A stretch of DNA of 39,183 bases from Lachnospiraceae bacterium (GTDB lineage: Bacteria > Bacillota > Clostridia > Lachnospirales > Lachnospiraceae), in contig JAFQMS010000019.1 of NCBI GenBank assembly GCA_017396145.1, positions 1-39,183 of the forward strand, in the 5' to 3' direction. Positions within the stretch are counted from its first letter, which is position 1. Every line of letters starts with the position of its first letter. Positions 3,788-23,283 of the stretch are shown here, one piece after another. A program made the position numbers and the translations under genes. A model generated the notes under the pieces. The model made no database searches. It was not told where the DNA came from and saw only the letters and a program-made list of their open reading frames with translations.

Positions 3788-4855
3788 TTATTCTATATAA
3801 TCAGGAAAATGAACCTCGATTTCCGTGCCAAAACCCGGTTCTGAGTCTAGGTCTATGAATGCCTTATGTATTGTGGCAATGTGTTTTACTATGGAAAGAC
3901 CAAGACCTGTTCCGCCGGTAGCCTTAGAGTGACTTTTATCTGCTCTGTAAAACCTTTCAAATATATGTGGCTGGTGCTCCGGTTCAATTCCGATGCCTGA
4001 ATCCCTAACAGATAGTACCACAAATGCATTCTCAACGCAATCATTAAGAATTTTGGCAACACCAGTATATTCTCTGCTGATAGTAAGAGTGATGGTTCCG
4101 CCCTCGTTATTATAGCGAATTGCATTGTCACACAGGTTGTAAACAAGTTCTGTAAGCAGACCTTTATCCCCTTTTACTATGTAGTTTTCTTTTGGATTAG
4201 AAATAATAGAAAATGTGACTTGTTTATTTTGCGCTATATCAGATAATGAGTTTACTACATCTTCAGATACCGATAAAAGGTTGACTGGTTTAAAATCTCT
4301 TTCCAAAAGCATATTAAGACTTGTTTCGTCTAATTGACTAAGTTTGATTATGTCATTTATAAGACATAAAAGGCGCTGAGATTCTGACATAATTTTGTCG
4401 GAAAAGTTTTTTATATCTTCAGGTTTTACCATGCCTGCGGACATAAGTTGGGCATAACCAGAAATTGAGGTTAGGGGGGTTTTTAGTTCGTGTGACACAT
4501 TTGCCGTAAACTCTTGACGCATAGCATCATGTGACTTTATCTTTCTTGCAAATGGTAAGAGTTCCTCATATGCAATATGATTTTCAATTGCTTCCATGTG
4601 TTCGGCCATTTCGATTACTGGATTTACAATGCTATTTGTCAGTTTGCGAGTGACAAATAGGGACATTAGAAAAATCAAACCAATTAATAGTAATATTGCT
4701 GGAAGAGAGTATATAACTATGGTTAAAAAATCTGAGTTGTCAACGCCCTTATCTATGCAATAGAAAATATAACTTACTATGATAATGGTAAGCAAAGAAG
4801 TAAACACACATATTAGGGTTAGTCTTTTATTAATTGTGGTGTGTAGTCTTTTCAT
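3788..4855 (-). CDS. phoR: Sensor histidine kinase, PhoR-like
   Basis: A 355-residue membrane kinase. Two membrane segments (about 11-32 and 44-67) flank a very short outside loop. The H box NVSHELKTPLTSISGY puts the phosphorylated His at about residue 122. The N box (LCDNAIRYN), G1 (DSGIGIEP), F box (ERFYRADKSH) and G2 (GTGLGLSIVK) are all intact. The short loop suggests sensing through the membrane or a partner, as in E. coli PhoR with the Pst transporter. ATG 4855 is preferred because GGAG precedes it by six bases; a TTG four codons upstream is the alternative. It starts 14 bp after the response regulator stop, so the two are co-transcribed. The PhoR name rests on the neighbouring Na/Pi transporter and Pho-box-like site. 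Confidence 0.88.
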   Translation of the reverse strand: MKRLHTTINKRLTLICVFTSLLTIIIVSYIFYCIDKGVDNSDFLTIVIYSLPAILLLIGLIFLMSLFVTRKLTNSIVNPVIEMAEHMEAIENHIAYEELLPFARKIKSHDAMRQEFTANVSHELKTPLTSISGYAQLMSAGMVKPEDIKNFSDKIMSESQRLLCLINDIIKLSQLDETSLNMLLERDFKPVNLLSVSEDVVNSLSDIAQNKQVTFSIISNPKENYIVKGDKGLLTELVYNLCDNAIRYNNEGGTITLTISREYTGVAKILNDCVENAFVVLSVRDSGIGIEPEHQPHIFERFYRADKSHSKATGGTGLGLSIVKHIATIHKAFIDLDSEPGFGTEIEVHFPDYIE

Positions 4856-4869
4856 AGGTTTCTCCAATT

Positions 4870-5544
4870 CTATTCAATTATATAGCCAACATTTCGCACA
4901 GTTTTAATTAAGTGGTCTGCAGGTGATAGTTTTTGTCTTAGGGTTTTAATATGCATATCCACAGTTCGGCTTTCCCCTGGATAGTCAAATCCCCATACTT
5001 TTTCAATTAGTTGGTTTCTAGACAAAACAATTCCTTTGTTTCTGATTAGGTATTTTAATAGTTCATATTCTTTGTATGTGAGTTTGCACTCTTTTCCGTC
5101 AACTAATACTTTATGCTTTCCCTCATCAATAACAATAGGTCCATAGGTTATTATGTTTTCTGCTGAAACTGTGGCTAAGACACTCCTTCTTAATAGTGCA
5201 CGAATTCTAGAAATCAATTCCATTATGCCAAAAGGTTTTGTTATATAGTCATCTGCTCCGTTGTCTAAACCTTTTACCGTATCAATTTCCGATGATTTTG
5301 CTGTAACCATAATGATGGGTAGATTTTTGGTTGTCGCGTTGGCTCTAAGTTTTTTTAGAATACTTATGCCATCCTCCCCAGGAAGCATAATGTCTAAAAG
5401 TAATAGGTCAGGAGTAGAAGCAATACAATCAGAAACTATATTCTCGCCATCGGAGTATGTCTTAACCTCAAAGCCACTACTTGTCAGTGCATACTCTTCT
5501 AATTCTCTGATATTAGTATCATCTTCAACAATATATATCATCAT
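4870..5544 (-). CDS. phoP: Response regulator, OmpR/PhoB family, PhoP-like
   Basis: A 224-residue two-domain regulator. The receiver domain has the acidic pair EDD near the N-terminus, the phospho-acceptor Asp51 in LLLLDIMLPGEDG, and the conserved Lys in DDYITKPFG. The C-terminal winged helix shows LTYKEYELLKYLIRNKG and the recognition region SRTVDMHIKTLRQKL. ATG 5544 has AAAGG six bases upstream. It is transcribed away from the Na/Pi cotransporter gene, whose promoter holds two TTTACA repeats. This arrangement argues for phosphate control, but the regulator could serve other envelope genes too. Confidence 0.9.
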   Translation of the reverse strand: MMIYIVEDDTNIRELEEYALTSSGFEVKTYSDGENIVSDCIASTPDLLLLDIMLPGEDGISILKKLRANATTKNLPIIMVTAKSSEIDTVKGLDNGADDYITKPFGIMELISRIRALLRRSVLATVSAENIITYGPIVIDEGKHKVLVDGKECKLTYKEYELLKYLIRNKGIVLSRNQLIEKVWGFDYPGESRTVDMHIKTLRQKLSPADHLIKTVRNVGYIIE

Positions 5545-5710
5545 AATAATCCTTTCATCTAGTCATGGTTAAAATTTGTATCACCATGCCAGCAAGTGTA
5601 TAAAAATCACTTAATAACATAAAACTAAAAATATCTTTTATATTCTGTACCATTCTAATTAAAATGTAAATGGTTTTTTGTGGATTTATGGCAAAATAGT
5701 GGTTTGGAAT

Positions 5711-5749
5711 TTTACATAAAATTTACATAGACTGAATACAAACTTTATT
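5711..5749 (+). promoter_or_regulatory. Pho-box-like promoter of the Na/Pi cotransporter
   Basis: Two exact TTTACA hexamers lie at 5711-5716 and 5722-5727, 11 bp apart, one helical turn. Tandem TTWACA-like repeats at 11-bp spacing are the known binding pattern of Gram-positive PhoP. The second copy can serve as the -35 element, with TTTATT (5744-5749) as -10 after 16 bases. A single inverted copy (TGTAAA) lies at 5665-5670. Phosphate control is inferred. Confidence 0.6.
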
Positions 5750-5816
5750 TTAAAGGTTTTTAATAAAAGTGATTTATGAAGTTGAAAAGAAAAAAAGAAA
5801 TGGAAGAGGACAGATT

Positions 5817-7505
5817 ATGAAAATAGAAATTGTAGAGGCGATATTTGGGTTTATTGGCGGACTTGGAATGTTTATCTATGGTATGAATACTATGGCAGAT
5901 GGACTTAACAAGGCGGCTGGTGAAAAGACAAAGAAACTATTTAAATGGCTTACTAATAACAAGTTTTTGGCTATAGTGGTAGGTGCTCTCATCACTGCCA
6001 TTATCCAGAGTTCTTCAGCTACAACTGTTTTGGTAGTTGGTTTTGTTAATGCAGGAATTATGGATTTAACTCAGGCTGTTGGAGTTATTATGGGTGCTAA
6101 CATTGGTACTACAGTAACCGCATGGCTGGTATCTATGAGTGAACTTGGGGGCCTTTTAAAACCAGAATTTTATGCACCTTTATTCGTTGGTTTCGGAGCA
6201 TTCTTGCTTATGTTTGCCAAGAAAGAAGGCAAGAAGGATGTTGCAGAGATAATTATAGGTTTTGGGTTTTTATTCATAGGTCTTAGTCTAATGTCTGGTG
6301 CTATAACACCTTATAAGGATGCCCCTATATTTTCTAAAGCATTTTCAGTGCTTGGACAAAACCCTATTCTTGGTATTCTTACAGGTGCTGTTGTTACGGC
6401 CATTATTCAAAGTTCATCAGCATCTGTGGGTATTTTACAGACCCTTGCAATTAATGGAGTGGTTAATTGGAATAGTGCTATATTTATAACGCTAGGTCAG
6501 AATATTGGTACATGTATCACTGCAATGCTTTCTAGTATAGGAGCAAACAAAACTGCAAAAAGGGCAGCAGTGATTCATCTATTATTTAATACTATAGGTG
6601 CTGTAATATTTGGTACAATAATGTTTGTTATTTTTAAACTCAACAGTGAGTGGGCAACGTCTACGATTAGTAGTGTACAGATATCTATTTTCCACACTAT
6701 ATTCAATGTGACTAATACCATTTTGCTTTTACCATTTGCTAATAAATTAGTTAAACTTTCGGGATTATTTATCAGGGATGTAAAAGTGGATAAGGAAAAT
6801 GAAGAAATAGATAAGGATGCAAAGAGACATCATACACCAGAAGAGATAGGTGCAGCTTTAGATAGTCGTCTTCTTGGAAGTACATCTTTTGCCATTCAAA
6901 ATGCAGTAAATCAAGTTCAACGCATGGCAGAGTTTACTCTTGATAATGTGAGAAGATGTATGAAGGCCCTAGAAGAAAATGACATGGCGTTAGTTGAAGA
7001 GGTATATGAGTGCGAGAAGATTATCAATGAACGAGAAAAAGAACTGATGGATTATTTCGTTAAAATAGATAATAAAAGTCTTACCCAGTTTCAGCACGAA
7101 CGCATAAAGAATATGCTTTATGCGGTAAGTGATATTGAAAGAATCGGTGACCATTGTGAAAATATCGCAGATTTGGCAAAGCAAAAGATAGACGAAGACA
7201 ATTGCTTTTCTAAAGAAGGAATGGATGATTTAAAGATTATTACTGAATGTATGTACTTGTCTTTGGAAAATGCCATAGAAGCATGGAAGAATGATAATGT
7301 GGAAGCGGCTAAGGCTACCAGATTCTTTGAAAACAGGGTGGATGAACTTGAAGAAAAACTTAGAGAAAAACACATAGACAGACTATCAAAGCAAGTGTGC
7401 AATACTCAAAGTGGCGTAATTTTCCTTGATGTTATTAACAATATGGAAAGAATCTCGGATCACGCGGTTAATATAGCGGAATATATTCCTCAGATGATGG
7501 GATAA
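5817..7505 (+). CDS. Na/Pi cotransporter family protein with C-terminal PhoU domain
   Basis: A 562-residue protein of the NptA/YjbB type. The membrane half contains the two inverted-repeat signature motifs IIQSSSATTVLVVG and IIQSSSASVGILQT, each in a re-entrant region, followed by about 200 soluble residues with PhoU-like helices (EFTLDNVRRCMKALEE, SDIERIGDHCENIADLA, NNMERISDHAVNIAEY). The family moves inorganic phosphate with sodium, and the PhoU part is thought to limit transport. I chose ATG 5817, which has AGAGGA six bases upstream; an in-frame GTG at 5769 has no such site. It is divergent from phoP-phoR and preceded by the Pho-box-like repeats. Direction of phosphate flow (uptake or export) cannot be read from the sequence. 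Confidence 0.9.
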   Translation: MKIEIVEAIFGFIGGLGMFIYGMNTMADGLNKAAGEKTKKLFKWLTNNKFLAIVVGALITAIIQSSSATTVLVVGFVNAGIMDLTQAVGVIMGANIGTTVTAWLVSMSELGGLLKPEFYAPLFVGFGAFLLMFAKKEGKKDVAEIIIGFGFLFIGLSLMSGAITPYKDAPIFSKAFSVLGQNPILGILTGAVVTAIIQSSSASVGILQTLAINGVVNWNSAIFITLGQNIGTCITAMLSSIGANKTAKRAAVIHLLFNTIGAVIFGTIMFVIFKLNSEWATSTISSVQISIFHTIFNVTNTILLLPFANKLVKLSGLFIRDVKVDKENEEIDKDAKRHHTPEEIGAALDSRLLGSTSFAIQNAVNQVQRMAEFTLDNVRRCMKALEENDMALVEEVYECEKIINEREKELMDYFVKIDNKSLTQFQHERIKNMLYAVSDIERIGDHCENIADLAKQKIDEDNCFSKEGMDDLKIITECMYLSLENAIEAWKNDNVEAAKATRFFENRVDELEEKLREKHIDRLSKQVCNTQSGVIFLDVINNMERISDHAVNIAEYIPQMMG

Positions 7506-16034: not shown

Positions 16035-16832
16035 ATGAATAAAGAAATTGGATTTATTGGATGTGGAAATATGGCTAGTGCCATGATTGGTGGAATAATC
16101 AAAAGTAAGATATTTAAGGCAAATGAGATTATTGCATCAGATGCTAATGAGATGGCAGTGCGTAATGCAGCAAATAATCTTCTAATTGAAACAACAAATG
16201 ATAATAAACTAGTTGCAAGACAGTCTAAGATACTAGTGTTGGCAGTTAAACCAATGTATTATAGCGCAGTGATTCAAGAGATTGCATCGGTTGTTAATGA
16301 AGAGCAGATAGTCATTACTATTGCTCCAGGGCAAACTATAGCGTCTGTTGAAGAGAGATTTGGCAAAAAGGTTAAGGTAGTAAGAACTATGCCAAATACG
16401 CCTGCATTGGTTTGCGAAGGAATAACAGGAGTATGTGCTAATGATAATGTGACACAAAATGAACTTGATCTTGTATGCAAAATCCTATCAGGGTTTGGTA
16501 AGGCTGAGGTTGTGGGAGAAAACCTTATGGATGTAGTTGTTTCTGTAAGTGGAAGTTCTCCAGCTTATGTGTTTATGTTCATTGAGGCAATGGCTGATGC
16601 TGCGGTTGCTGATGGAATGCCAAGGGATAAAGCGTATAAGTTTGCTGCACAGGCAGTTATGGGAAGTGCTAAGATGGTTTTAGAGACAGGAAAGCATCCA
16701 GGAGAATTAAAGGATATGGTTTGCTCTCCTGGCGGAACAACAATAGAGGCTGTTCGAGTTCTTGAAGAGAAGGGATTTAGAAGTAGTGTGATTGAGGCTA
16801 TGAAGGCTTGTACTCAGAAAGCGAGGAAGTAA
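16035..16832 (+). CDS. proC: Pyrroline-5-carboxylate reductase
   Basis: A 265-residue NAD(P)H-dependent enzyme making proline from pyrroline-5-carboxylate. The N-terminal Rossmann fold shows IGFIGCGNMASAMIGG; the C-terminal dimerisation domain holds the family signature starting at GELKDMVCSPGGTT and the substrate-site stretch VSVSGSSPAYVFMFIEA. The length fits the family. ATG 16035 is preferred over an in-frame ATG at 15996 that would overlap metF; a purine-rich GAGAGAAAAG leader precedes it. It is the second gene of a metF-proC-DUF975 run; the pairing has no obvious pathway logic. Confidence 0.94.
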   Translation: MNKEIGFIGCGNMASAMIGGIIKSKIFKANEIIASDANEMAVRNAANNLLIETTNDNKLVARQSKILVLAVKPMYYSAVIQEIASVVNEEQIVITIAPGQTIASVEERFGKKVKVVRTMPNTPALVCEGITGVCANDNVTQNELDLVCKILSGFGKAEVVGENLMDVVVSVSGSSPAYVFMFIEAMADAAVADGMPRDKAYKFAAQAVMGSAKMVLETGKHPGELKDMVCSPGGTTIEAVRVLEEKGFRSSVIEAMKACTQKARK

Positions 16833-16834
16833 TT

Positions 16835-17548
16835 ATGAATAATGATTTTATTTGGGGAAGAATAAAAGAGGATGCAAAAATTGCCTTTCATAATCAGTGG
16901 GGAGTTGCAGTACTTATTACGTTGTTTATAGGCTTTTTTACCTTAGTAAACGAGGCATTATCTGCAGTAGAAAACATTGCTATAAACACCAGTTTATATA
17001 AGGAATTGCTTGATAGTGAGGTAATTGACGCTATAATAAAGTTTTACATGAAATATGACATCTTATTTCTTGTAGTGCCATTGGCTATAAGCCTATTCCT
17101 CATAATAGCTAAATATGGAGAGTGTAAATTGTATCTGGATATAGTAGAGTCTAGGGATGCAAGGTTTTCTACGATATTTGAAGGATTTCTATATGTGTTT
17201 AAAGCAGTAGGAGCAAGTTTATATACAACAATTCTTATAGTGTTGTGGTCGTTTTTGTTCTTTATTCCAGGATTGATTGCAGGAATAAAATATTCTATGA
17301 CAACCTATATAATTGCGGAGAATCCTAGCATTCCAATCACAGATGCTGTGGACATGAGTAAGAATATGATGGATGGACATAAGATGGATTATTTTATGCT
17401 CAAACTATCATTTATTCCATGGGTAATTCTTATAACATTAACATGCGGACTTGCCAGTATATATGTAACACCATACATGAACTCAGCCACTGCTCAGTTC
17501 TATGTACAGGTTAAGAGCGAGTATGAAGTGGAGAATGGGGAAGAGTAG
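16835..17548 (+). CDS. DUF975 family integral membrane protein
   Basis: A 237-residue protein with about five hydrophobic segments (near residues 20-45, 70-95, 125-155, 185-215). The motif FFIPGLIAGIKYSMTTYII and the downstream ITDAVDMSKNMMDGHKMDYF match the DUF975 pattern known from Firmicutes. Function is unknown. It starts two bases after the proC stop, so translation is likely coupled, and GCGAGG inside proC serves as its binding site. The terminator at 17579 closes the operon. Confidence 0.8.
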   Translation: MNNDFIWGRIKEDAKIAFHNQWGVAVLITLFIGFFTLVNEALSAVENIAINTSLYKELLDSEVIDAIIKFYMKYDILFLVVPLAISLFLIIAKYGECKLYLDIVESRDARFSTIFEGFLYVFKAVGASLYTTILIVLWSFLFFIPGLIAGIKYSMTTYIIAENPSIPITDAVDMSKNMMDGHKMDYFMLKLSFIPWVILITLTCGLASIYVTPYMNSATAQFYVQVKSEYEVENGEE

Positions 17549-17578: not shown

Positions 17579-17615
17579 CAAGTGCCACGCTTTTTGAAGT
17601 GTGGCACTTGCTTTA
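17579..17615. terminator. Bidirectional terminator between convergent operons
   Basis: CAAGTGCCAC (17579-17588) pairs with GTGGCACTTG (17601-17610). It lies between the rightward proC/DUF975 run and the leftward sigma-factor gene that ends at 17618. T-rich bases follow on both strands, though neither run is long. Confidence 0.7.
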
Positions 17616-17617
17616 TA

Positions 17618-19666
17618 TTAATCGAAGTTCTCTTTTACGAATTCTTTAAGTTCGTCCTTCATCATAAAATATGTTGTTTTGCAATGTTGTATGGTTGGCA
17701 CATCTATTACTCTGGCTCCTAGAATACAGCAATAGTTATCACCTTCAAACATTGTGATGCCTTCGGGCCAAACGCCTGTGACAGCAACAGGTATACCATA
17801 CTGTTTCATAACATACTCGCGACTTGCAGCGTATGATACATATCCAGGAAAGCATACCTGTGGCCAAACATTTGCAGTGTCCAGACATAGGTTATGGACT
17901 AGATAAGTATTTACACCATAAATCATACAGTCGCCTAAGCTTGTTGGTGTGTCAGCATCATTATATAGTATGTAGTTGACTTGTATCAAACCTGTTTGAT
18001 GCCCATTGTCTTCGCGAGTCTGAGGATAGGTATAGATGCAGGAAATAACTAATATTTCTTTTGGGTCTAACATGATTTTTGAATCATTTATGTTGAAATA
18101 TTCAATTTCACCTGAGTTGGAATATGTGTCTGCTCCGGGATATTTTTCTATCATAGTACCATTTGTTATGGACAAAGATTCACCCAGATTAATCTCGCCC
18201 AGATTAATTTGGGCAAGGTAAGAGGCTTTGCAAGGAAGCTTCAATGTGTGTCCATTGATTAGCACTTCTCCTAAATCAATATTAGCTTCTGGGGTTAGGT
18301 ATTCCTTGTTAGCAATAACATCTGACGCAGTATCTTTTTTTACAACATATACAGGACCTGTGAGATCTTGGTAAAGGTTTTCGTTGTATTCATAGTGGAG
18401 TTCACTAGGTTCTGTGTATTCAATAATGTTAGTGTAATCTGTGCTTTGCGCAATAAAATCTGGCGTTTCATAGTAATTATACTTGTCATTTAACGGTATG
18501 ATATAATAGTCACCGTTTACATCGGAAGAGGTGGCTCCATATCTGTCATATAGAAGATGGGAATCGTTATGGGAGCCTAAAAAAGTATGGCTTAAATCAA
18601 TTTTATTATCAATAATAACTTTTCCCCAAGACTTGTCTGCATCAGTGTTAACATTAGTATCATCCAAATTGTCGTTATCGTCTTTGTCAGGTGTGCTATC
18701 TGATGAAACTTGGCTATTATTCTCTTTGTTCTGATTGTCACCCTTAGGAAGAACAGCAACAACTATTGTAGCAGTAACGACTGCTATAGTTACAATAGCG
18801 GCAATAACTGCCTTCATGCTAAGGCCAAATAATACTGCGGATTTTGTAGCACCTGCAACAGCAGCAGCGGTAGTAGCGGTTGCAGCAGTACCAGACGAAG
18901 CGACGGTGGCAGCAGTTGAAGCAGTTGAAGCAGTGGCAGTAGTGGTTGAGGCAGCGCCAGAAGAAGTAGTAGCAGTGTTTGTAGCTTCAGCTGAGGAATT
19001 CATTTCTGCATTTGCTACGTCGGCGTCTATACTTACTGTAGCTGAAAGTGTTGAATATGCTGGCACTGCAACCTGTGCGAAGCTCTCCTCCGCCTGAAAT
19101 ATAAGATATAAAAATGGTAAAAGTGCAATAGAGCGAAGTTGTACACCTTTATCCTCTAACTTGTCTACTTCTTTTTTAATATTCTTTCTAGCATAACCTA
19201 GTCTGTTACGAGTAGTCTGCTCTGAACAACCAAAAATCTGAGATATCTCTTTAACAGTCATATCCTGATAATAATACAAATGAACTGCGATTCGCTGGTC
19301 TTGAGGAAGACCATTGATAATGTCTAAAAGTATGTCTCGTACATCATCATCAATGACAACCTCCTCTGGATTCTTTTGGCTTTCATCTTCAATATGTTCA
19401 AAGCTTTCGCCTTCGCTACTTGTAGCAGTAAGCTCCTCGAGTTTTATGCGATTAGTTTTCTTTAACTCATTAATACATTCATTGGCGGCAATACGATTAA
19501 TCCAGCCTTTAAAGCTACTGGTATCTTTAAGCGTGTCAATCTTATCAAAAGCTTTAATGAATACATTTTGCGCCATATCTTTGGCGTCTTCTTCGTTTTG
19601 AAGATATTTGTAACATGTGTAGTATACAGATTTATAGTGTTCGGTATAAAGTTGTTCCAGATTCAT
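17618..19666 (-). CDS. ECF-type sigma factor fused to membrane anchor and large extracellular domain
   Basis: A 682-residue chimera. Residues 1-70 are sigma region 2 (YKYLQNEEDAKDMAQNVFIKAF, WINRIAANECINELKK); 118-170 are region 4 (LPQDQRIAVHLYYYQDMTVK, then helix-turn-helix ISQIFGCSEQTTRNRLGYAR). A hydrophobic patch GVQLRSIALLPFLYLIF follows at 174-190. Residues 205-275 are almost only Ser, Thr and Ala. One strong membrane helix lies at 284-306, and about 375 residues, acidic at first, would be outside. Typical ECF factors are about 180 residues and held by a separate anti-sigma factor; here the restraint may be built in. It begins 18 bp after a lipoprotein gene, with AAAGGAG before ATG 19666, and is surely co-transcribed with it. 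The outer domain is not recognised. Confidence 0.85.
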   Translation of the reverse strand: MNLEQLYTEHYKSVYYTCYKYLQNEEDAKDMAQNVFIKAFDKIDTLKDTSSFKGWINRIAANECINELKKTNRIKLEELTATSSEGESFEHIEDESQKNPEEVVIDDDVRDILLDIINGLPQDQRIAVHLYYYQDMTVKEISQIFGCSEQTTRNRLGYARKNIKKEVDKLEDKGVQLRSIALLPFLYLIFQAEESFAQVAVPAYSTLSATVSIDADVANAEMNSSAEATNTATTSSGAASTTTATASTASTAATVASSGTAATATTAAAVAGATKSAVLFGLSMKAVIAAIVTIAVVTATIVVAVLPKGDNQNKENNSQVSSDSTPDKDDNDNLDDTNVNTDADKSWGKVIIDNKIDLSHTFLGSHNDSHLLYDRYGATSSDVNGDYYIIPLNDKYNYYETPDFIAQSTDYTNIIEYTEPSELHYEYNENLYQDLTGPVYVVKKDTASDVIANKEYLTPEANIDLGEVLINGHTLKLPCKASYLAQINLGEINLGESLSITNGTMIEKYPGADTYSNSGEIEYFNINDSKIMLDPKEILVISCIYTYPQTREDNGHQTGLIQVNYILYNDADTPTSLGDCMIYGVNTYLVHNLCLDTANVWPQVCFPGYVSYAASREYVMKQYGIPVAVTGVWPEGITMFEGDNYCCILGARVIDVPTIQHCKTTYFMMKDELKEFVKENFD
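18842..18994 (-). repeat. Ser/Thr/Ala low-complexity coding tract
   Basis: This part of the sigma-factor fusion encodes about 50 residues made almost only of Thr, Ala and Ser. The DNA is a GC-rich imperfect array of GCA/GTA/GTT-type triplets, clearly unlike its AT-rich neighbours. It lies just before the membrane helix. Such tracts vary in length by slippage and may act as a flexible linker. Confidence 0.75.
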
Positions 19667-19684
19667 TGTTATTCTCCTTTAAGT

Positions 19685-21415
19685 TTATTTGTAGGTATAT
19701 ATCTGGTATTGGTTTGTATCTGTATCAGATACCCAATGTGTCGAGATTATCATATCATTAGAAGCATACATACGATAATCGTCTAATGTCACTAATTCGG
19801 TTATTTCATTAGTTTCTATATTTAATTGTTTTAAGGTTGTTTTGTTGTCATTGGTTGCTTTATCGGTTACATAGTATAACAGGTATTTATCTTTAACAAT
19901 AGTTAGAGCTACACCGGATAATTCTTCGGATTTTTCTATGCGTGTCTCTTTTTTTGCTTCTCTATCATATATAATCATAAAGGTTTTAGAGTTTAATACA
20001 ACTTTTTTAGAGTCTACACTTGTGCAAAAACTTGGTCCGTATTCTTCTGTTTCAGTTGTAAACAGTAGATTGCCATTGTGGTCAAACACTTTTGTTACAG
20101 TATCAGTTTCTTCGGCAAAAAAAACTGGGTCTGATTGTTTTGAATAAGTCTCTGTAATTTGATAAATATCTGAACCATGTACAATGTCGTCAGTTGGCTC
20201 GATTTCTATTTTGACACCATTTGCCATATTGAGAATATAACGCTTGCCAGCGGTGTCTGTAAATACTATGTACCAATCAGAATATGAAACAGGTTCAATG
20301 CGAGTGAATTCTATTGCTTCCGTGTCAGTAACAATATATCCATAGGTTTGGTAACGGTTAGTATATATGCTGATTTTTGATTCACAGGCTTCATCCAAAT
20401 ATATGCTGTCCTCATCGAAAATCTCTAGGGTATCGGCATCATCTGGCAATGTTACAATATTAGTAAGGTCTGTTTTGCAGATTGCAGTGTATGGAGTAGG
20501 GGCATATGAAAAACGGCAAAGCACACTGTTGTTCCAGCCGATTTCTTCAATAACAGGAATTTCTTCAGGGTTGGTAGTGCTAAAGGTTAACTTACCATTT
20601 TCATCAAAAACAGAGTGCTTGATGAAGTCCAAACCAGTCTCATCCTTTTCCTGAAGGACGATGTTGTTACCAACAATATAAAGGTGACCGGTATATCTTG
20701 TTATATGCTTAGATACCTCTAATTCTTTGATAGTAGTCTCAAGAACTAATTCTCCATTTGAAATATTATACACCTGTTTTACTCCGTTTTCACGGTCAAT
20801 AGTTATAAAATAGTCAGTAAAGTCATCATTACTTACCCATGTTATAGAATCGATTTTGTAAATCTCTTCACCGGTAAGAGGATTGACACATTTAATTGTG
20901 TTGTTGTTATCCTGATATACAAGATTGTTGTCCTTATTAACTATATATGGATTAGGATATGATCCTTTTCCAAGGCTGTCTTTATAAGAAACCGTACCTT
21001 CTGGTGTTATTGCATAGATATAAAAATCATCCTCACCTTTTTCGCCAGTAGTGTTAATACTTATTTCAAGGAGGATAAAGGAGCCATATCGGTCCACGCT
21101 TTCAATTGCAACACCACCGGATTCTATTATTTGATTATTGTAATTTTCATATATGTCGATTACCTTTAAGCCTTTTTCGTCACATATGATAAGATTATTG
21201 AGGAAATGGCTTACATTAATATCTAATGTATCCTCTTTTTCAAAAGAGTGCTGTAATTTGACAGAACTAATTGTGTCTACAGGAAGTATAACTTCTTTGT
21301 TATCATTGTTTTTGGTGCTGTCGCTATTGTTGCCAGTGTCGGTTTTATCGTTACCGCATCCTGTTAACGCAAGTGCTCCCATCATAATTCCTAATACTAA
21401 ATACTTTCTTAACAT
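19685..21415 (-). CDS. Large lipoprotein, probable beta-propeller, partner of the sigma-factor fusion
   Basis: A 576-residue secreted lipoprotein. The signal peptide ends in the lipobox ALTGC with Cys20 as the lipidated residue, followed by an Asp/Asn/Lys-rich linker to about residue 45. The remainder shows repeated beta-strand blocks (KGLKVIDIYENYNNQ, NTIKCVNPLTGEEIYKID, KVFDHNGNLLFTTETEE) of the sort found in PQQ/WD40-like propellers. ATG 21415 has AAAGGAG upstream. It is the first gene of a two-gene operon with the membrane-tethered sigma factor, so it may supply the sensory or ligand-binding partner on the outside. No specific family is claimed. Confidence 0.75.
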   Translation of the reverse strand: MLRKYLVLGIMMGALALTGCGNDKTDTGNNSDSTKNNDNKEVILPVDTISSVKLQHSFEKEDTLDINVSHFLNNLIICDEKGLKVIDIYENYNNQIIESGGVAIESVDRYGSFILLEISINTTGEKGEDDFYIYAITPEGTVSYKDSLGKGSYPNPYIVNKDNNLVYQDNNNTIKCVNPLTGEEIYKIDSITWVSNDDFTDYFITIDRENGVKQVYNISNGELVLETTIKELEVSKHITRYTGHLYIVGNNIVLQEKDETGLDFIKHSVFDENGKLTFSTTNPEEIPVIEEIGWNNSVLCRFSYAPTPYTAICKTDLTNIVTLPDDADTLEIFDEDSIYLDEACESKISIYTNRYQTYGYIVTDTEAIEFTRIEPVSYSDWYIVFTDTAGKRYILNMANGVKIEIEPTDDIVHGSDIYQITETYSKQSDPVFFAEETDTVTKVFDHNGNLLFTTETEEYGPSFCTSVDSKKVVLNSKTFMIIYDREAKKETRIEKSEELSGVALTIVKDKYLLYYVTDKATNDNKTTLKQLNIETNEITELVTLDDYRMYASNDMIISTHWVSDTDTNQYQIYTYK

Positions 21416-21567
21416 ATTAAAATCTCCTTTTTATTGCTTGTTCTTTGTATTTTTGTTCATAATATGGTGTAAGAGGTTATTATCTGTTAAACTCCACTAT
21501 TCTCTTTGTTGCTTCCACCAATATTGGACATATTAATTATACAATAATTATTTAGGAGGAGCAAGTT

Positions 21568-21855
21568 ATGAATTTTGGCGAGAAATTAAGGAGCCTTAGG
21601 AAAGGTTCCAATCTTACACAACAACAACTTGGAGAATTGCTAGGTGTTGCAAAATCGGTTGTTTCATATTATGAGCAGGGGGACCGCTGTCCTTCCCAGG
21701 ATGTATTAATAAGAATAGCTTCTGTATTTCATACATCCACAGATTATTTACTGGGTTTAGAGAAGAAGCGGACCCTAGATGTCTCCGACCTTGACGATGA
21801 AGATGTTAAGGTACTGGAGAATATGGCAAATGCATTGCGTTCTAAGAAAGGTTAA
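21568..21855 (+). CDS. XRE family transcriptional regulator
   Basis: A 95-residue protein with one N-terminal Cro/C1-type helix-turn-helix: LRSLRKGSNLTQQQLGELLG and AKSVVSYYEQGDRCPS, then the typical TDYLLGLE end of such domains. The last 25 residues are acidic and helical, perhaps for dimerisation. AGGAGG lies eight bases before ATG 21568. It is divergent from the lipoprotein/sigma operon with a 152-bp shared gap, so it could regulate that operon or itself. Nothing shows which. Confidence 0.9.
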   Translation: MNFGEKLRSLRKGSNLTQQQLGELLGVAKSVVSYYEQGDRCPSQDVLIRIASVFHTSTDYLLGLEKKRTLDVSDLDDEDVKVLENMANALRSKKG

Positions 21856-22140: not shown

Positions 22141-23283
22141 ATGAAAAAGTCAAAACTTTTATTAATGACACTTTTAGTTTTCGTTCTTTCAATCGCTTTA
22201 GTTGCTTGCGGCAAAGATGATAAGAAAGATGACGATGACGACAAGGAGACAAAAGCTCCTAAGGCAACAGTTGAAGCTGAGAATAAGAACGACGCAGATA
22301 CAGACAAAGAAGATGTAGATGCTGACAAGGAAGATGCAGATGCTGACACAGATGCGGACAAAGAAGATGCAGACGCTGATGCAGATGCTGACACAGATGC
22401 AGATGCTGACACAGATGCAGACAAAGAAGATGCAGACGCTGACACAGATGCAGACGCAAATGCAGGAGATGTTACTGTTGTAACATTAGCAAAGAACTGG
22501 ATTGGTTCAATTATTGATGCTAAGAAGGTTGACAGTATGTCAATGGGCGGAAGCGCAGTACTTGATATGACTAATCAGGGTTCAAAACTTAAACTTGATG
22601 CATTAGTTGATGTCGAAATCACAAAAGATCCACTTGTTATGAAGATGGTATTTGATGTGAATGGTGATATGGCTGGAACTCCAATGACTATGAAGATGGA
22701 TGCTTATGTTGTATTAGAAGATGGAAAAGCATACATGATTATGAATGATCCAACAGGTGCAAATGCAGGTTACTTCAAGTTTGCTGCAGAAGATCTTGAT
22801 GCAGATGATATGGTAGAGTCAATGACTGAGATGGCAGAAGCATTTGAAGAAATGGATTTCTCTGCAATAGATAAAGATGAGGTTCTTAAGGAATTAGATG
22901 AAGCTCTTGCACCATATGCAGATGTTCTTAATACATTCAAGGTAGTTGAAGAAGGCGGAAAATATGTTATTGCTGGAACAATCACTGAAGAGCAGATTAA
23001 TACTGCAATTGAATCAGTTAAGAGTTTAGCAGGAGATGCTGCTTCTCAGGTTGATTCATATCTTGCAATGATTCCAGAAGGATACGGCGGAATTGACTAT
23101 AAGTTCACATTTGACAAGGCTTCAGGTGCATTTGAAAGTGCAAAAGTTGATTTCTCTAAATTAGCTAAGGCTTTAGTTGGTGAAGCTGGTGAAAACTCAA
23201 TTTCTATTAACTTAGGATTTAACGATGTTTCAACAATCACAGTACCAGAGGCTGAGTTAACAGATCCATCAACATTACAGTAA
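22141..23283 (+). CDS. Lipoprotein with acidic Asp-Ala repeat stalk
   Basis: A 380-residue lipoprotein. The signal peptide ends at VACG, with Cys23 the lipidated residue. Residues about 25-110 are an extreme acidic stalk, DDDDDK and then repeats of DAD, DTDAD and DKED. From about residue 112 a folded domain begins, with alternating strand patterns (GSAVLDMTNQGSKLKLDALV, ITKDPLVMKMVFDVNGDM, KVDFSKLAKALVG) that recall LppX/LolA-like or DUF-type substrate-binding lipoproteins of Clostridia; I do not assign a family. GGAGG precedes ATG 22141. The stalk may span the wall and could bind cations. It is monocistronic with a terminator at 23321. Confidence 0.8.
   Translation: MKKSKLLLMTLLVFVLSIALVACGKDDKKDDDDDKETKAPKATVEAENKNDADTDKEDVDADKEDADADTDADKEDADADADADTDADADTDADKEDADADTDADANAGDVTVVTLAKNWIGSIIDAKKVDSMSMGGSAVLDMTNQGSKLKLDALVDVEITKDPLVMKMVFDVNGDMAGTPMTMKMDAYVVLEDGKAYMIMNDPTGANAGYFKFAAEDLDADDMVESMTEMAEAFEEMDFSAIDKDEVLKELDEALAPYADVLNTFKVVEEGGKYVIAGTITEEQINTAIESVKSLAGDAASQVDSYLAMIPEGYGGIDYKFTFDKASGAFESAKVDFSKLAKALVGEAGENSISINLGFNDVSTITVPEAELTDPSTLQ
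22341..22442 (+). repeat. Tandem 63-bp repeat in the acidic stalk
   Basis: The 39-base segment starting at 22341 recurs at 22404 with one mismatch, an offset of 63 bp or 21 codons. Between and around them are shorter six-base GATGCA/GACGCT units. Length variation by slippage is to be expected. Confidence 0.75.

Follow-up and report, generated by a model that had tools for sequence, protein, structure and literature searches.

A membrane-anchored ECF sigma factor of a Lachnospiraceae bacterium belongs to a family with a conserved motif after region 4 and varied outside domains

RESULTS

One chain combines a sigma factor, a membrane helix, and an outside domain

We analyzed contig JAFQMS010000019.1 of a Lachnospiraceae bacterium (assembly GCA_017396145.1), a stretch of 39,183 nucleotides referred to here as the window, and focused on a minus-strand open reading frame (ORF) that joins an extracytoplasmic function (ECF) sigma factor to a membrane protein. 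The ORF begins with ATG and encodes 682 amino acids (aa). ECF sigma regions 2 and 4 come first, followed by one membrane helix and, beyond it, 377 residues on the outside. The protein matched TIGR02937 (E of 1.2e-32), and Pfam detected sigma2 and sigma4 but not sigma3, the combination by which it belongs to group 4 (ECF). Its parts are as follows.

17618..19666, minus strand: membrane-anchored ECF sigma factor, 682 aa (ORF, Pfam, TIGR02937, hydropathy)
19448..19651, minus strand: sigma region 2, aa 6-73 (Pfam PF04542, E 2.5e-15)
19172..19336, minus strand: sigma region 4, aa 111-165 (PF08281 at aa 111-162, E 2.2e-12; PF04545 at aa 117-165, E 2.3e-10)
19094..19159, minus strand: post-sigma4 family-specific motif, aa 170-191, LEDKGVQLRSIALLPFLYLIFQ (conservation over 66 members)
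18809..19087, minus strand: A/S/T/G-rich linker, predicted cytoplasmic, aa 194-286 (composition)
18752..18808, minus strand: single transmembrane helix, aa 287-305 (hydropathy 2.86; family charge bias N-in/C-out)
17621..18751, minus strand: outside domain of no recognized family, aa 306-682 (no Pfam, NCBIfam, or PDB match)

A previous sequence-only reading of the window had described sigma regions 2 and 4, a linker, one helix at residues 284-306, and about 375 further residues, in a gene that starts 18 bp past one for a lipoprotein. This layout held, with the helix peaking at residues 287-305 and 377 residues beyond it. The same reading had placed sigma factor, tether, and outside domain in a single chain with no anti-sigma gene adjoining, and both the ORF layout and the neighbors agree: the downstream gene is convergent (16808-17548), the upstream one is a divergent helix-turn-helix gene (21568-21855), and neither is an anti-sigma gene. 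The linker spans 93 aa, of which 70% are A, S, T, or G, compared to 28% across all member proteins of the family described below. Charges flanking the helix are +2/0 on the N side and +2/−2 on the C side. The segment that runs past sigma4 through the helix has no Cys, and the tail has 8 Cys in 377 aa. No FecR- or CSS-type outside anti-sigma domain was matched by Pfam in the protein up to an E of 1, and the outside domain found one weak match (E of 1.6e-4) across 298 other genomes of the same bacterial family.

The layout recurs in 66 nonredundant proteins from Clostridia

From fetched loci, we gathered 69 proteins of this kind, 66 of them nonredundant (less than 80% identical over the model), window protein included. 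These counts omit the duplicates L095, L100, and L101 and three L077 proteins, and verrucomicrobial matches at 19-20% identity (L059 and L060) were left uncounted. Median pairwise identity among members is 31%. In all 66, sigma2-sigma4 leads into a 22-residue motif and a linker of small residues, after which come a single Leu-poor helix and the outside domain. The window protein aligns to positions 1-201 of the family model, which was built from 29 sequences with the window sequence among them, and has the motif, the small-residue linker, and the one helix.

The host of the window, a draft genome that is 58.5% complete (G000), carries two paralogs of the same plan, one on contig C49 (761 aa, ATG at L009:4258) and one on contig C33 (676 aa), and the three proteins group together on the sigma core. 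Since these paralogs and the 66 nonredundant proteins have the same layout, that of the window is not due to chance, nor is the fusion unique to this sequence, a doubt that the sequence-only reading had raised. Its other doubt, a frameshift or assembly artifact joining two genes, was ruled out by the same fusion in the single-contig genomes G036, G233, G266, and G363 and in two records not labeled as metagenome assemblies (L058 and L054). One other genome of the same genus (90% complete) had no member at an E of 1e-20.

A pairwise search that scored three candidates per genome found relatives in at least 27 of 299 genomes of the bacterial family, G000 included, and the open frames of all matches listed were 447 codons or longer. 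A profile (A2) that covered the sigma part and about 40 more residues gave at least 50 matches in at least 39 of the 299 genomes, and at least 46 of them, in at least 35 genomes, reached model position 186 or beyond in frames of 447-1003 codons. Four of the 50 (G151, G133, G213, and G153) were dropped as nonmembers. We also dropped the idea that every match is a member; matches ending near model position 165 were mostly soluble ECFs of about 200 aa. In a class-wide sample, members occurred in at least 14 of 292 genomes from six families among the matches listed. Among those listed for a phylum-wide sample (249 genomes), the only genomes with members were G262 and G000, which belong to family f1, the bacterial family of the window; this count leaves out a 280-codon frame in G638. 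The profile searches scored at most 10-12 candidates per genome, and the genome counts are therefore minimum values. Among the named carriers are Coprococcus comes MSK.16.63 (L058) and Anaeromassilibacillus An172 (L054). Taken together, the family appears to be large and little described.

In a tree of the sigma core, which used the first 164 model columns without the motif and added 24 nonmember sequences, all 66 members fell on one side of a split with a support of 0.917, with 3 other sequences inside and 21 outside. The intruders were L135, a long-branched soluble ECF that has a membrane anti-sigma-like gene of its own, and two L077 proteins. The latter come from adjoining long membrane-sigma genes (L077:852-3626 and 4372-6228) whose helix directly follows sigma4, with no motif or linker; a third sigma gene there is cut by the end of the stretch. 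We also observed another ECF fusion class (L136-L140), in which sigma2-sigma4 is followed by about 400-870 residues with no membrane helix at the threshold used.

A conserved motif follows sigma4, and the helix is poor in leucine

The motif has the consensus LEKKGtKLYSxAPlPFLllLfr at model positions 166-187. Over the 66 members, it averages 1.97 bits per column, compared to 1.78 for sigma2, 2.15 for sigma4, and 1.10 for the columns after it. Because the motif is part of the model used for picking members, selection partly accounts for its presence, though not for its degree of conservation. The solved ECF chains that cover region 4 end at model position 162-167, before the motif, which thus extends the known ECF fold at its end. 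The closest solved chain to the family profile is SigW (5wuq, E of 4.6e-34). Two ideas for the motif were rejected: as an amphipathic helix it has a low helical moment (mean of 0.18, n = 64), and as a second membrane helix it is mostly too weak, exceeding a hydropathy of 1.6 in only 6 of 66 members.

Member linkers run from 21 to 145 aa (median, 57), with a median A/S/T/G content of 51% against a background of 28%. A helix follows the motif and linker in all 66 members (hydropathy of >1.3), the weakest scoring 1.56 (L081). The mean flanking charges, +2.7/−0.2 on the N side and +1.9/−2.5 on the C side, fit a cytoplasmic placement of the sigma part. Member helices contain 8% Leu and 49% A/G/S/T, compared to 17-20% and 28-36%, respectively, in three comparison sets, namely helices of anti-sigma factors (n = 13), other single helices (n = 40), and those of polytopic proteins (n = 242). 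A composition rich in small residues and poor in Leu may favor cleavage by site-2 protease.

Outside domains are diverse, and some recur in surface proteins

The outside parts of members span 109-711 aa and form 42 BLAST clusters, with that of the window alone in its cluster. The tails of the window protein and 10 other members, both paralogs included, had no Pfam match at the curated cutoff, and 14 members have an N-terminal zinc-ribbon pattern. The L087 tail matched a zinc-ribbon membrane protein encoded beside L086 (49% over 137 aa, E of 2e-37), the L022 tail matched the lipoprotein beside L054, and the L083, L084, and L087 tails matched the lipoprotein beside L110. No sigma tail matched a neighbor in its own locus at any member locus. 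Given that some tails recur in surface proteins encoded close to other members, we read the tail as a surface module that appears to be exchangeable.

The zinc type of anti-sigma domain is absent from the chain and its close neighbors

We looked for a zinc anti-sigma-like pattern in the chain or a close neighbor and found it in 0 of 66 members, compared to 13 of 15 soluble relatives, where it lies in the gene next door; these 15 were chosen among the best-scoring nonmember matches. Site-2 protease (PF02163) was present in seven of seven searched genomes with members and in one genome of the same genus as the window.

An ECF-type promoter element lies upstream of some relatives

Within 400 bp upstream, the sense strand of 14 of 66 members has the pattern AAC[CT]-N15-17-[CT]GTCT (4 of the 66 upstream stretches were shorter than 400 bp). 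Among the controls, the antisense strand gave 1 of 66, gene interiors 2 of 66, and the pattern read backwards 1 of 66, and 100 shuffles gave a mean of 0.52 and a maximum of 3. Dropping the last T gave 15 sites; the halves were exactly 16 nucleotides apart in 14 of these, although 15-17 were permitted.

A tighter form, TAAAACYT-N15-YGTCTW, had 11 sites in seven genomes, six of which had been picked because their members have the element or belong to the same clade. Nine sites were at loci of the family. Seven of the 11 lie directly upstream of family sigma genes. Another, in G036, lies about 60 bp upstream of a 117-aa gene, called lipoprotein-like by eye and classed by script as having an N-terminal helix, which itself precedes the sigma gene by 229 bp. 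In G139, one falls between a sigma gene and the lipoprotein gene that comes next, and two are elsewhere in G363. Read backwards, the tighter form occurs upstream of 0 of 66 members. The location of 9 of the 11 sites suggests a predicted self-regulon that is narrow. In specific form, the element predicted for the L104 or L055 sigma factor would read TAAAACCT-N15-CGTCTA.

Scanning the window region for sigma-70 type promoters was uninformative (19 found, 19.0 expected). Rfam on six loci returned one match, in L054, far from the sigma gene, which was disregarded.

Microproteins precede the sigma gene in two clades

Two clades encode microproteins of 35-60 aa between the promoter, where one was found, and the sigma gene. 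The first, mpA, resembles DEExFxxLFxxFVEExxLDxxxAERLLQRIxxIL and is present at 8 of 10 loci of what we term the zinc-ribbon clade. An N-terminal zinc pattern is seen at 8 of 10 loci of this clade. It lies at L104:3142-3324 and at about L054:5456-5626 and upstream of the sigma gene in L050, L051, L052, L053, L055, and L022. The second, mpB, is found at L102, L103, L061, and L096 and in part at L078. Profiles matched unseen loci (L050, E of 7e-11; L053, 2e-11; L054, 5e-11; also L096 and L078), with E values that apply to a search space of a few hundred upstream segments. On the antisense strand, used as a control, the first search had no match at an E of 1, and later ones had none below 0.3. Neither microprotein was found at the window locus, C49, or C33 or within 500 nucleotides upstream of the other members' sigma genes, a range that copies ahead of an intervening gene, as in L054, would escape. 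We regard mpA and mpB as candidate micro-regulators of the sigma factor.

At three related loci (L110, L112, and L063), another conserved small protein (75-109 aa as called) is encoded 18-39 bp upstream of the sigma gene, with a common stretch like DYIFIRPGQ.

The lipoprotein gene and other neighbors

The remaining features around the window sigma gene are the lipoprotein gene that precedes it on the minus strand, the ribosome-binding sites, and a hairpin.

19685..21415, minus strand: lipoprotein, 576 aa, PQQ-like beta-propeller by sequence (lipobox LTGC at aa 17-20 by eye; phmmer)
21424..21430, minus strand: ribosome-binding site AAAGGAG of the lipoprotein gene (read by eye)
19674..19680, minus strand: ribosome-binding site AAAGGAG of the sigma gene, inside the 18-bp gap (read by eye)
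17579..17610, minus strand: terminator-like hairpin after the sigma gene, 14 pairs (hairpin scan and eye)

The two genes thus have separate AAAGGAG sites across the 18-bp gap. The hairpin scan listed 17579-17610 on the plus strand only (3 found, 2.7 expected), and the T-rich tail on the minus strand was read by eye. The lipoprotein had no match in Pfam or NCBIfam; phmmer matched it to the designed propellers 6tji (E of 1.1e-14, six stretches) and to the PQQ-type 3hxj (E of 2.9e-4).

The sequence-only reading had suggested the lipoprotein as outer partner of the sigma factor. As a fixed half of a two-gene system, it was not supported: its sole match across the 298 other genomes of the bacterial family was weak (E of 5.2e-5) and confined to residues 3-55, and no lipoprotein gene lies beside either paralog. 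No homology of the window ectodomain or of the lipoprotein to neighbors or tails at other member loci was found. What does recur is the kind of neighbor. Close same-strand neighbors were lipoprotein-like in 10 of 54 cases, the window's own counted, compared to 19 of 250 background ORFs (P = 0.018). They were exported or membrane proteins in 39 of 54 compared to 112 of 250 (P = 2e-4) and zinc-ribbon membrane proteins in 7 of 54 compared to 6 of 250 (P = 0.003). These three tests used gaps of <150 bp and mechanically called ORFs of at least 75 aa, against background ORFs of >120 aa. A lipoprotein-like gene followed by the sigma gene, behind an ECF-type promoter, also occurs in L054 and G036; L054 has the order promoter, microprotein, lipoprotein, sigma, the last two as in the window.

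Elsewhere in the window, a 380-aa lipoprotein-like ORF (22141-23283) has a signal sequence followed by a long Asp/Ala/Lys/Glu/Thr stretch of low complexity (DADADTDADKEDAD...). In G456, three short members (L091, L092, and L094; 395-412 aa) have as their same-strand neighbor a very large, exported-looking protein (819-1009 aa).

DISCUSSION

Single-chain membrane ECF factors have already been described (PMC8999054), and with IutY and ECF48/52/53 as precedents, the idea is less new than the sequence-only reading implied. IutY of Pseudomonas putida (ECF243) is a single-chain sigma/anti-sigma activated by Prc and RseP and, like the family here, has a cytosolic ECF sigma, a membrane segment, and an outside domain in one chain (PMC5411451, PMC8999054). 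It differs in serving Gram-negative siderophore signaling, with an outer-membrane receptor and a periplasmic CSS-family anti-sigma domain, and in the passages compared it is not described as having swapped ectodomains, a long linker of A/S/T/G, or a motif after sigma4. SCO4117 of Streptomyces coelicolor (ECF52) likewise combines ECF sigma, membrane region, and outside domain, and its authors proposed autoregulation and proteolytic release (PMC5826349). However, ECF52 is restricted to Actinobacteria, has a carbohydrate-binding outside domain where we found 42 outside clusters, and has a zinc finger after the sigma part (PMC5826349), a pattern absent from our 66 members. ECF262 (Ruminococcus albus SFB89493.1) and ECF288 (Blautia producta WP_018594055.1), given with unstudied regulatory extensions in Table 2 of PMC8999054, have Clostridia representatives, and by description, the level at which we compared them, either might overlap with the family. 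ECF288 is described with a cysteine-rich extension, and the Cys count of the window tail does not decide the overlap.

By sigma sequence, the nearest relatives are of the SigW/RsiW type, in which the anti-sigma runs from the cytoplasm through one helix near aa 95 to further residues. That type has two genes and a zinc anti-sigma domain, whereas the family here has one gene and no such domain. What sets the family apart from the known systems is its motif after sigma4, outside domains that can be exchanged, the missing zinc anti-sigma domain, and the microproteins of two clades. In the openly licensed literature, we found no title on such a membrane-sigma family in Lachnospiraceae.

On balance, we favor reading the window protein as a transmembrane one-component ECF sigma factor that is held at the membrane, silenced by its motif, released by proteolysis, and transcribes its own gene. 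The sigma2-sigma4 part would be cytoplasmic and inactive while the chain is membrane bound. With no zinc anti-sigma domain left, the motif is the best candidate for silencing; conserved, hydrophobic, and set on a flexible linker, it probably inhibits as a built-in replacement for an anti-sigma domain. The variable outside domain, here with the surface lipoprotein of the same apparent operon, may sense an envelope or nutrient cue. The signal would lead to trimming outside, after which site-2 protease would cut the Leu-poor, small-residue-rich helix and free the sigma part. Release by proteolysis seems the most economical reading by analogy, as it was shown for IutY and proposed for SCO4117. The freed sigma would then transcribe its own operon from the ECF-type promoter, in some relatives together with a neighboring surface-protein gene. 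That the window gene behaves as its relatives do is likewise something we infer.

Several results weigh against this reading. The zinc-pattern test covers the zinc type only and would miss other anti-sigma types, and PF02163 was not found in the window's draft genome, which is 58.5% complete. Rather than inhibiting, the motif could contact RNA polymerase or dip into the membrane. The promoter pattern was first read off loci of the zinc-ribbon clade and widened on the same set, so the count of 14 is not blind, and the strict form is absent within 400 bp in 52 of 66 members. Genome wide, the tighter form read backwards is commoner (28 sites compared to 11, 1-7 per genome); therefore, the number of sites is meaningless, and only their location counts. 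The tighter form has 0 sites in G000, and the region upstream of the genes at the window locus did not outscore shuffled sequences (P = 0.385; for C49, 0.105; for C33, 0.545). Because no promoter was found at the window or in G000, self-regulation of the window gene would follow by kinship only.

ToxR and CadC are transmembrane regulators that act while membrane bound, and the family's sigma factors could do the same, with the linker letting sigma reach polymerase and DNA and the signal altering oligomerization or freeing the motif with no cleavage. The long flexible linker makes this a real rival: linkers of 21-145 aa (median, 57) and low complexity are longer than pure release seems to need, and small-residue-rich helices may favor helix packing. 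We nevertheless consider it unlikely, as a tethered sigma would need to let go of polymerase after initiation, and IutY, which PMC8999054 names as the only ECF of such kind with characterized activation, is released by proteolysis. More doubtful still is that a microprotein of the same apparent operon, or another soluble protein, is the real anti-sigma and that the membrane tail only localizes the chain near the envelope. The presence of mpA at most loci of one clade and of mpB at four loci of another, plus a partial copy, would suit that idea, but no microprotein was seen in the 500 nucleotides upstream of other members or around the window, C49, and C33. That the sigma part is a degenerate relic in what is now only a surface protein we find scarcely credible. 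Sigma sequences are divergent, as the median identity of 31% attests, yet sigma2 and sigma4 are still conserved, and an ECF-type element of near-constant spacing precedes a good number of members.

Beyond the window protein, for which motif silencing and release by proteolysis remain our preferred reading, we tentatively propose that the family may form a separate class specific to Clostridia. In such a class, the hydrophobic motif would replace the entire anti-sigma domain, sensors would be freely exchanged and held in common with surface lipoproteins and zinc-ribbon membrane proteins near other members, every copy would act from an ECF-type promoter of its own on a self-operon that is extremely narrow, and microproteins of that operon would serve as additional built-in regulators in two clades. 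The family brings dozens of different outside domains in Clostridia, gut and rumen species included. With self-promoters predicted for a good part of the members, their sensor inputs could become readable with one simple reporter, and the family makes it testable how a sigma factor is silenced without a recognizable anti-sigma domain.

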